From Natronospira bacteriovora (GTDB taxonomy: Bacteria > Pseudomonadota > Gammaproteobacteria > Natronospirales > Natronospiraceae), in assembly GCF_030848495.1 (NCBI RefSeq), contig NZ_JAVDDT010000010.1, positions 1 through 64,000 of the forward strand: 64,000 bases of DNA, written 5' to 3'. Below the pieces are notes generated by a model. It saw only the letters and a list, made by a program, of their open reading frames with translations. It did not search any database and was not told the DNA's origin. Positions 13,708 to 47,366 of the stretch are shown one piece after another (position 1 is the stretch's first letter; each line of letters starts with the position of its first letter). The position numbers were made by a program, and so were the translations under genes.

Positions 13708-13730
13708 AATGGGCGCAAGCATCCCGCGCG

Positions 13731-13955
13731 TCCAGGCCGGTCTACGGGCTCACGAGTGGAGTCTGTTGCTCCGCGGGTGGCCGCCTTCCCATGCCCGAAG
13801 GCACAGTGGCGTGTGGTCATCCGCTACCGGCTTGATGCCGGTCACTCATTCACCGTTGCGGGGGCAGCGTCGGAATGGGGCCATCCGCGAGGACGACCCG
13901 GCACCGACTTCCCGTTTAATCCCTTTCTCGGAAAGAGTCAGGGACACCTGGTGCG
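13731..13955 (-). promoter_or_regulatory. Cobalamin riboswitch
   Basis: The minus strand carries, in order, the conserved pieces of an AdoCbl-type aptamer: GGTGTCCC, GGGATTAAACGGGAAGTCGG, CCCCCGCAACGGTGA, GCCACTGTG, CATGGGAAGGCGG and finally a B12 box GAGCCCGTAGACCGGCC at its 3' end (about 13735-13752). It lies roughly 200 bases upstream of btuB. By family knowledge, B12 binding lowers expression of the downstream genes; here those are btuB, btuF, btuC, btuD, cobB and cobQ. The expression platform is not a clear terminator, which suggests control of translation or a more distal effect. Confidence 0.93.
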
Positions 13956-13963
13956 AGGCGGCA

Positions 13964-13992
13964 AAACTATCAGCAAGGGAGGGTTTCGTCAA
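13964..13992 (-). promoter_or_regulatory. Candidate promoter of the B12 operon
   Basis: On the minus strand, TTGACG is followed after 17 bases by TAGTTT (or after 15 bases by GATAGT). Either would place the transcription start a few bases before the riboswitch. The -35 element abuts the stop codon of the upstream GGDEF/EAL gene. The -10 match is modest. Confidence 0.5.
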
Positions 13993-25484: not shown

Positions 25485-25572
25485 TGGTGCCCGGAGCCGG
25501 ACTCGAACCGGCACGGCCCAAAGGGCCAGCAGATTTTAAGTCTGCTGCGTCTACCAGTTTCGCCACCCGGGC
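25485..25572 (-). tRNA. tRNA-Leu(TAA)
   Basis: An 88-base gene with encoded CCA. The acceptor stem pairs GCCCGGG with CTCGGGC-type 3' bases (CCCGGGC... TCCGGGCACCA), the anticodon loop reads CTTAAAA (anticodon TAA), there is a variable arm typical of class II tRNAs (GGCCCTTTGGGCC), and the T-loop is GGTTCGAGTCC. It is equivalent in position to leuZ in E. coli. Confidence 0.95.
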
Positions 25573-25612: not shown

Positions 25613-25686
25613 TGGAGGCTCGGGCCGGAATCGAACCGACGTCCACGGCTTTGCAGGCCGCTGCATAACCACTCTGCCACCGAGCC
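25613..25686 (-). tRNA. tRNA-Cys(GCA)
   Basis: A 74-base gene with encoded CCA. The acceptor GGCTCGG pairs with CCGAGCC, the anticodon loop CTGCAAA gives GCA, and the T-loop GGTTCGATTCC is intact. It lies 40 bases upstream of tRNA-Leu and the two are probably one transcript. Confidence 0.96.
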
Positions 25687-25740: not shown

Positions 25741-25960
25741 AACCCGTCTACTCCCCCCCAAAAACCCTCAGCTCCCCCGGCCCTCGTTGTCGTAATCGTA
25801 GTCGTAATCGTAATCGGCCTTTCCGCCTTTCTTCGAAAAAACCCGATTACGACTACGACTACGACTACGACTACGAGAAAACCCGGCGCCGGGACATTTT
25901 TCGGGTTTTTCCTCGTGACTCGATTGGGAAAAGCTCGACAACGACAACGACACAAATGCG
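25741..25960. repeat. Palindromic hexanucleotide repeat element, copy A
   Basis: Two 35-base arms built of GTCGTA/ATCGTA hexamers (25783-25817 and 25843-25877) are inverted copies of each other with 32 of 35 positions matching and a 25-base loop. They are followed by a small terminator-like block (AAAACCCGG...CCGGG...CGGGTTTTT) and by further ACAACG units to about 25950. The left flank (AAAACCCTCAGCTCCCCCGG) is related to the flank of the copy at 39905. The element lies inside the ancestral tRNA-Gly/Cys/Leu cluster. The apparent open frames across it encode only repeats and are not genes. Confidence 0.85.
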
Positions 25961-26085
25961 TCTGGAACGTATTTGAACTCGCGCTCTGCGCGAGGCCCCG
26001 ACCAACGGGAGGGGTAAGTCTCACGGATGAGACGCATAACGCCAACGATGGTCGCTGCCGGATTCGTGCGTTGGAGGGCGGGCAC
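25961..26085. other. Intergenic stretch next to copy A
   Basis: Apart from the repeat, the 440 bases between tRNA-Cys and tRNA-Gly hold this segment with no confident gene. It could be further decayed repeat or an unknown small RNA. It ends at the tRNA-Gly terminator. Confidence 0.3.
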
Positions 26086-26118
26086 AAAAAAGCCCCGATG
26101 CCGACGCATCGGGGCTTT
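26086..26118 (-). terminator. Terminator of the tRNA-Gly transcript
   Basis: An 11-bp perfect stem (AGCCCCGATGC / GCATCGGGGCT) with a CGAC loop, followed on the minus strand by TTTTTTG. It lies about 8 bases after the tRNA-Gly 3' end and would stop transcription before tRNA-Cys. Confidence 0.9.
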
Positions 26119-26125
26119 CCTGATC

Positions 26126-26201
26126 TGGAGCGGGAAACCGGATTCGAACCGGCGACCCCAACCTTGGCAAGGTTGTGCTCTACCAGCTGAGCTATTCCCG
26201 C
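26126..26201 (-). tRNA. tRNA-Gly(GCC)
   Basis: A 76-base gene with encoded CCA: acceptor GCGGGAA pairs with TTCCCGC, the anticodon loop TTGCCAA gives GCC, and the T-loop GGTTCGAATCC is intact. It occupies the place of glyW downstream of pgsA in E. coli. Confidence 0.96.
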
Positions 26202-39904: not shown

Positions 39905-40000
39905 ACACCCCCAGAACCTTCAGTTACCCCGGCCCGCGTAATCGTACGTCGTAGTCGTAATCGGCATTTACCAGGCTTTCCTCAAAAAAAACCGGACACA
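39905..40000. repeat. Hexanucleotide repeat element, copy C (partial)
   Basis: This contains GCGTAATCGTACGTCGTAGTCGTAATCGG (29 bases, 39936-39964), the same hexamer units as copy A, with related flanks: CCAGAACCTTCAGTTACCCCGG to the left and GGCTTTCCTCAAAAAAAACC to the right. The matching right palindrome arm is missing or decayed. It lies between the aldehyde dehydrogenase and the ATP-grasp gene. Confidence 0.75.
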
Positions 40001-41356: not shown

Positions 41357-41530
<174 letters not shown>

Positions 41531-45883: not shown

Positions 45884-46645
45884 ATGTCCACATACATTCT
45901 TTTCGGCGTGATCGGGATCATCATCCTGCTGCTCGTCAGCATGTTCAAGATCCTGAACGAATACGAACGCGGCGTGATCTTCATGCTCGGCCGCTTCTAC
46001 AAGGTCAAGGGCCCCGGCCTGATCATCGTGATCCCGCTCATCCAGGAAATGGTCAAGGTCGACCTGCGCACCATCGTGCTGGATGTGCCCAGTCAGGATG
46101 TCATTTCCCAGGACAACGTCTCGGTCAAGGTCAATGCGGTGATCTACTTCCGCATCATCGATCCGGAAAAAGCCGTCATCCAGGTCGCCAATGTCTTCGA
46201 CGCCACCAGCCAGCTCGCCCAGACCACTCTGCGCTCCGTCCTCGGCAAGCACGACCTGGACGAAATGCTCGCCGAGCGTGACAAGCTGAACGCGGATATC
46301 CAGAGCATCCTGGATAGCCAGACCGACGCTTGGGGCATCAAGGTCACCAACGTGGAGATCAAGCATGTGGATCTCGACGAAAGCATGATCCGCGCCATCG
46401 CCAAGCAGGCCGAAGCCGAGCGTAACCGGCGCGCCAAGGTCATCCACGCCAAGGGTGAGCAGCAGGCCGCCGAAAACCTGGTGGAAGCCGCCAACATGCT
46501 GGTCACCAACCCCCAGGCCATGCAGCTGCGCTATTTGCAGACCCTGGGCGACGTCGCCGGCGAGAAGAGCTCCACCATCGTCTTCCCCCTGCCCATGGAC
46601 CTGCTCAAGCCCCTCATGGCCAGGCTGGAAGGTGACAAGAAGTAA
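45884..46645 (+). CDS. Slipin (stomatin-like membrane protein)
   Basis: A 253-residue member of the SPFH superfamily: one N-terminal membrane hairpin (about residues 3-20), the SPFH/band 7 domain (about 25-190; [45 protein letters not shown]) and a C-terminal helical region (about 190-253) that is the target of NfeD-type proteases. It forms ring complexes in the inner membrane. GGAG precedes the ATG. A duplicate of its 3' end lies at 47120-47366. Confidence 0.95.
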
Positions 46646-47119: not shown

Positions 47120-47366
47120 CCCTATTGCCGAAGCGGAACGTACCCGTCGCGCCAAGGTGATTCACGCCCAGGGTGAGCAACAGGCCGCCGAAAAGCTGGT
47201 GGAAGCCGCCGACATGCTGGTAGCCAACCCACAGGCCATGCAGCTGCGCTATCTGCAGACCCTGGGGGACGTGGCCGGCGAAAAGAGCTCCACCATCGTC
47301 TTCCCGCTGCCCATGGATCTGATCGAGCCTTTAATGAGCAAGCTCAAGGGCGGCAAGGACAAGTAA
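47120..47366 (+). pseudogene. 5'-truncated duplicate of the slipin gene
   Basis: From about 47120 the reading (GCCGAAGCGGAACGTACCCG, then IHAQGEQQAAEKLVEAADML) matches residues about 170-253 of the full slipin 1 kb upstream; the aligned 67 C-terminal residues differ at only about ten positions. Upstream there is no SPFH domain; instead transposase remnant sequence abuts. It retains a stop codon and its own terminator, so it was copied with its 3' flank and then truncated. A 69-codon open frame remains, but I consider it non-functional. Confidence 0.85.

Follow-up and report, generated by a model that had tools for sequence, protein, structure and literature searches.

Intergenic arrays of a short unit are found in cyanobacteria as short tandemly repeated repetitive (STRR) sequences, and the small dispersed cyanobacterial repeats of Elhai are said to sit in tandem repeats. 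To our knowledge, small repeats settling inside other repeats have seldom been documented outside cyanobacteria. The TAACTGA sequence of Beggiatoaceae forms direct heptamer repeats, which lie mostly just upstream of start codons (PMC4679880). As a further system of comparison, we considered the REP, REPIN and BIME elements (PMC3116915, PMC3733652). Here we describe a family of hexamer-armed palindromes of Natronospira bacteriovora, starting from a copy located in a tRNA-Gly/Cys/Leu cluster within a stretch of 64,000 nucleotides, referred to as the window.

Results

Arm anatomy of the palindrome at the tRNA locus

A sequence-only reading of this locus had described two inverted arms of 35 bases, and 32 of the 35 positions were confirmed to match between them (Table 1). 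Within the window, a degenerate arm pattern was matched 16 times against 0.04 expected. In addition, the 220-nt stretch carrying the arms folded far better than its shuffles on both strands (z = -7.5 and -8.0), in agreement with the hairpin capacity attributed to it, and the three tRNA genes were found where they had been placed. The foreign stretch, however, reaches farther to the right than had been noted, to about 26045, and appears to hold half of a second palindrome as well. The same compound layout can be read at C4:160759, C5:65662 and C5:104012. C runs or a similar C-rich leader lie 5' of the left arm in several elements (window 25750-25783, C1:353332, C1:136070), the similarity of these leaders among elements being below the shuffled threshold.

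The window holds two other copies. The one at 41359 is fuller than the copy at the tRNA locus and begins about 4 nt past the stop codon of a gene. A cobalamin riboswitch is located on the minus strand at window 13717-13966. The predicted genes at 45884-46645 and 47157-47366 match one single gene of the relative G002, the second only part of it, which suggests a partial duplication.

Table 1. Features of the tRNA locus and of the other two copies (positions in the window).
Feature	Position	Strand	Description
tRNA-Leu	25485-25572	-	
tRNA-Cys	25613-25686	-	
Left hexamer arm	25783-25817	+	units TG.AA.AG.AA.AA, then TCGG loopward
Loop of short hairpin	25818-25842	.	CCTTTCC...GAAAAAAC
Right hexamer arm	25843-25877	-	units AG.AG.AG.AG.AA, then TCGG loopward
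Likely half class-2 interior	25878-25935	.	AAAACCCGGCGCCGGG...CTCGTGACTCGA...AAAAGC; read by eye from the sequence
Outer hexamer array	25936-25951	-	CGACAACGACAACGAC; adjoined by the 90-bp repeat
Separate 90-bp three-hairpin repeat	25952-26041	+	beside hexamer arrays, in fixed register
tRNA-Gly terminator	26088-26120	-	in all three relatives; outside the element
tRNA-Gly	26126-26201	-	
Eroded copy	39935-39995 (near 39949)	+	downstream of a gene terminator common to both congeners
Full class-2 copy	41359-41528	+	hexamer arms, inner heptamer arms, GC-rich centre

The family is numerous and nearly restricted to one genome

A lack of further copies would have counted against the earlier reading as an insertion, but many were found: the exact arm 18-mer TCGTWRTCGTWRTCGTWR occurs 455 times in this genome of 3.0 Mb and 15 contigs, where the reversed control gave no match. 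Exact arm 18-mers numbered 0 to 3 per genome in 383 other gammaproteobacterial genomes, specifically 3 (at a single locus) and 0 in the two congeners and 0 to 2 in the others searched. A longer arm pattern, present 94 times in this genome, was found in none of 397 other genomes of the phylum. Extrapolation from 24 elements along 641 kb of contiguous DNA gives about 110 loci genome-wide; the stretches analysed cover some 804 kb of the genome, and part of them were picked around matches. Three exact arm matches in viral contigs, with no inverted second arm in the 450 bases around each, are probably due to chance. Rfam returned only sub-threshold matches for the hexamer element, with no family at gathering level; literature searches for the arm sequences led only to unrelated papers, and general repeat searches to papers on REP, TAACTGA and SSR.

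Hexamer elements favour gene 3' ends

None of the 75 located elements overlapped a predicted gene, the predictions coming from a simple gene finder of our own making. In this sample, which was partly fetched around matches and whose context figures carry that bias, 28 elements lay in convergent, 42 in tandem and 5 in divergent gaps, compared to 62, 230 and 78 gaps overall; convergent gaps were over-represented and divergent ones under-represented (p = 1.3e-4 and 3e-3). Within tandem gaps, the elements lie closer to the preceding gene, at a median of 30 nt from its stop codon as against 71.5 nt to the start of the following gene. The elements are therefore intergenic and favour gene 3' ends.

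Such a position might suggest bidirectional intrinsic terminators with decorated stems, as might the internal GC stem and T run of copy 41359 and a heptamer array of the congener G001 that lies next to a clear terminator just past a stop codon (L240). We regard this explanation as very unlikely, since the signature of an intrinsic terminator, a GC-rich stem followed by a T run, is not a feature of the family: a T-rich tail follows 8 of 90 outer flanks, and a GC stem with a T tract was seen in none of the 29 short loops and in two of the 16 long ones. Moreover, both the tRNA-Gly gene and the site at 39949 already have a separate native terminator. A terminator function is thus unlikely for most copies.

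Unit order, arm length and loops

Forty-five parsed hairpins, spanning 55-216 nt, have arms averaging 4.6 and 5.0 units, with maxima of 9 and 10. The arms are composed of TCGTTG, TCGTAG and TCGTAA, in which the TCGT core is fixed and the last two bases vary. In both arms the order inward is the same, with homogeneous TG runs outermost, followed by AG and AA (AA beside the loop) and then by TCGG; transitions from TG to AA occur 33 times, against two from AA to TG. The fixed core, the variable last two bases and the six-base spacing could point to binding-site arrays for a chromosome-organising or RNA-binding protein. The sites of such a putative protein are near-absent from the congeners and track gene ends in their position, so that we give this idea hardly any credence.

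In-register identity between paired arms was not above that of permuted pairs (p = 0.21), which fits independent slippage of the arms. In one duplicated pair, the arms measure 8 and 8 units (C2:27833) and 3 and 5 units (C2:31491), so that the expansion and contraction proposed for the arms is visible as a length change between two copies. Based on this pair and on the independent composition of the arms, the two arms of an element seem to change length independently through slippage. The two bases that follow TCGG covary only weakly between arms (overall p = 0.024, without significance in either loop class taken singly), and this was kept out of the evidence.

The 29 short loops (16-50 nt) resemble one another no more than shuffled sequences do, in a comparison to which only about 10 nt of each loop are informative. 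Most of the 16 long loops (85-124 nt) have a common interior whose heptamer arms are inverted, the class-2 core: 95 of 120 pairs of interior cores exceed the shuffled 99% level, in a comparison that takes in the low-complexity heptamer arms, and their flanks are mostly unrelated. This core was found at 11 places in this genome, where dispersed copies are 88-98% alike at unrelated sites, and at three places in G001 (with 85% identity on C92); G002 and 53 further genomes gave no match. G001 carries the inner core without the hexamer shell, and in the explanation favoured below the heptamer-armed inner palindrome is the older of the two. Three short loops (C1:545016, C5:103372, C5:162143) seemingly hold remnants of the class-2 interior, which suggests that short forms may derive by internal deletion.

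Empty sites in the relatives

The spacer between tRNA-Gly and tRNA-Cys is 439 nt long here versus 142, 122 and 100 nt in the relatives G001, G002 and G003, where it is repeat-free, as looked for in an empty site. The copy at the tRNA locus therefore arose within this lineage, being either inserted or grown locally. Both a repeat and a terminator had been said to separate Gly from Cys-Leu; the repeat is lineage-specific, but the terminator, present in all three relatives, is ancestral and lies outside the insertion. The stretch directly before tRNA-Cys (TTCGCGCCCTG) is shared by this genome with G001 and G002. The insertion reading is thus supported by the further copies and the short spacers; that the hexamer palindrome is mobile is our inference.

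Seventeen orthologous gaps that hold a hexamer element here were seen in G001. Nine of them are short and without any array; the others contain GCTCG heptamer palindromes (three), an ACTCAG palindrome (one), palindromes of eight-base units (two) or other DNA (two). The element is absent at many orthologous sites, in congener intergenic DNA too diverged for placing its junctions. The G001 heptamer unit GCTCGTN forms long arrays, with 23 matches against none in this genome, the heptamer and ACTCAG counts coming from strict patterns that miss eroded copies. At C1:316136, an inverted heptamer array is present in both species, with GCTTGTA here and GCTCGTN in G001. A site-sharing test with G001 gave an odds ratio of 9 (p = 0.015, uncorrected for multiple tests), with p = 0.038 after removal of one contig fetched for its array and p = 0.17, not significant, for heptamers alone. 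In G001, palindromes of CGCAAAGACGCCAAGACGC-like eight-base units lie at gene gaps on C103 and C51. From the different heptamers at one orthologous site, and from heptamer versus hexamer shell at others, it might be speculated that the hairpin is kept at some gene gaps between sister species, while all units in both arms are replaced and the arms corrected against each other; we hold this only tentatively, as rather improbable.

Iterated-unit palindromes with different units in both species are also what would be left by growth in place, in which slippage and template switching would lengthen short hairpins already present at 3' ends and nothing would move between loci. The homogeneous outer TG runs are compatible with this, and the dissimilarity of the short loops in 29 hairpins would follow from it equally well. 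Nevertheless, about 110 sites here have TCGT units and the TCGG end in common, against almost none in the congeners, and the inner core is dispersed among unrelated sites; growth in place is thus a rather unlikely explanation.

A 90-bp repeat beside the hexamer arrays

The 90-bp repeat has 13 matches genome-wide, namely 12 copies of full or nearly full length, which occupy 11 loci (one of them with a tandem pair), and one 28-nt fragment outside any array. At all 11 full-length loci a hexamer array ending in CGAC lies directly to the left, in the same register, and at seven of them the right side continues with ACAACGA. Other gammaproteobacterial genomes contain partial relatives of its first part, and two such relatives, in G263, follow a CCCTCTCCCTCTGGG repeat. 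The 90-bp element appears to settle in other repeats. It was not found in the plasmids, phages or viral contigs searched. An attC site, considered from its ends, was dropped by eye, as the core-site motifs do not fit. In a second family of long palindromes (L221 1480-2035, L261-L264), about 350-450 nt separate the ACTCAGC heptamer arms, and some members are nested with hexamer and GATTCAC/GCCTYAC arrays.

Discussion

Taken together, these data lead us to favour, with a confidence a little above even, a family of palindromic repeats at gene 3' ends that is non-autonomous and specific to this lineage, REP-like in behaviour without being a REP. A copy consists of a pair of inverted polar arms, in some cases enclosing the presumably older heptamer-armed palindrome. 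The arms would lengthen by replication slippage, and a trans-acting enzyme would have copied the whole palindrome from site to site; the dispersed core and the empty sites argue for such movement. The place after stop codons may be one where the elements are tolerated, not one where a function requires them, and protection of RNA 3' ends could be a side effect. A genome-wide transposase search, which covered the Y1 family, linked no transposase to the hexamer family. As a countable lineage-specific burst with empty sites in sequenced congeners, the family makes movement and slippage separable by strain comparison.

Among the known classes, the inverted hexamer arms provide the terminal inverted repeats of a MITE. 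Like STRR sequences, the family forms intergenic arrays of a short unit; unlike these tandem heptanucleotide arrays, its main arms have a period of six (heptamers being confined to the class-2 inner arms), they are inverted pairs closing a hairpin, and the host is a gammaproteobacterium. Judged by description alone, the 90-bp repeat resembles the Elhai-type repeats in sitting at tandem arrays, here of hexamers, and differs from them in being 90 bp long with three hairpins.

With REP, REPIN and BIME elements the family shares its intergenic and frequent occurrence, the polar module in inverted pairs, the ability to form hairpins and the location near gene ends (PMC3116915, PMC3733652), and the genome does encode one RAYT, its only Y1_Tnp match (L187 7432-7956). 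However, this gene is flanked by GTGGGAG-type REPs (GTGGGAGAGGCTTTAGCCTCGA-type repeats) and by no hexamer arrays, and the arms are tandem TCGTNN repeats of variable length instead of a 20-40 bp palindrome with a GTAG or CGTC tag, the tag being judged by eye. That the hexamer elements are a REP/REPIN family moved by this RAYT is accordingly highly improbable. GTGGGAG-type REPs occur in G001 too. Finally, the family resembles TAACTGA in its many short-unit intergenic arrays in gammaproteobacteria, and differs from it in that the hexamer arms are inverted and favour 3' ends (PMC4679880).
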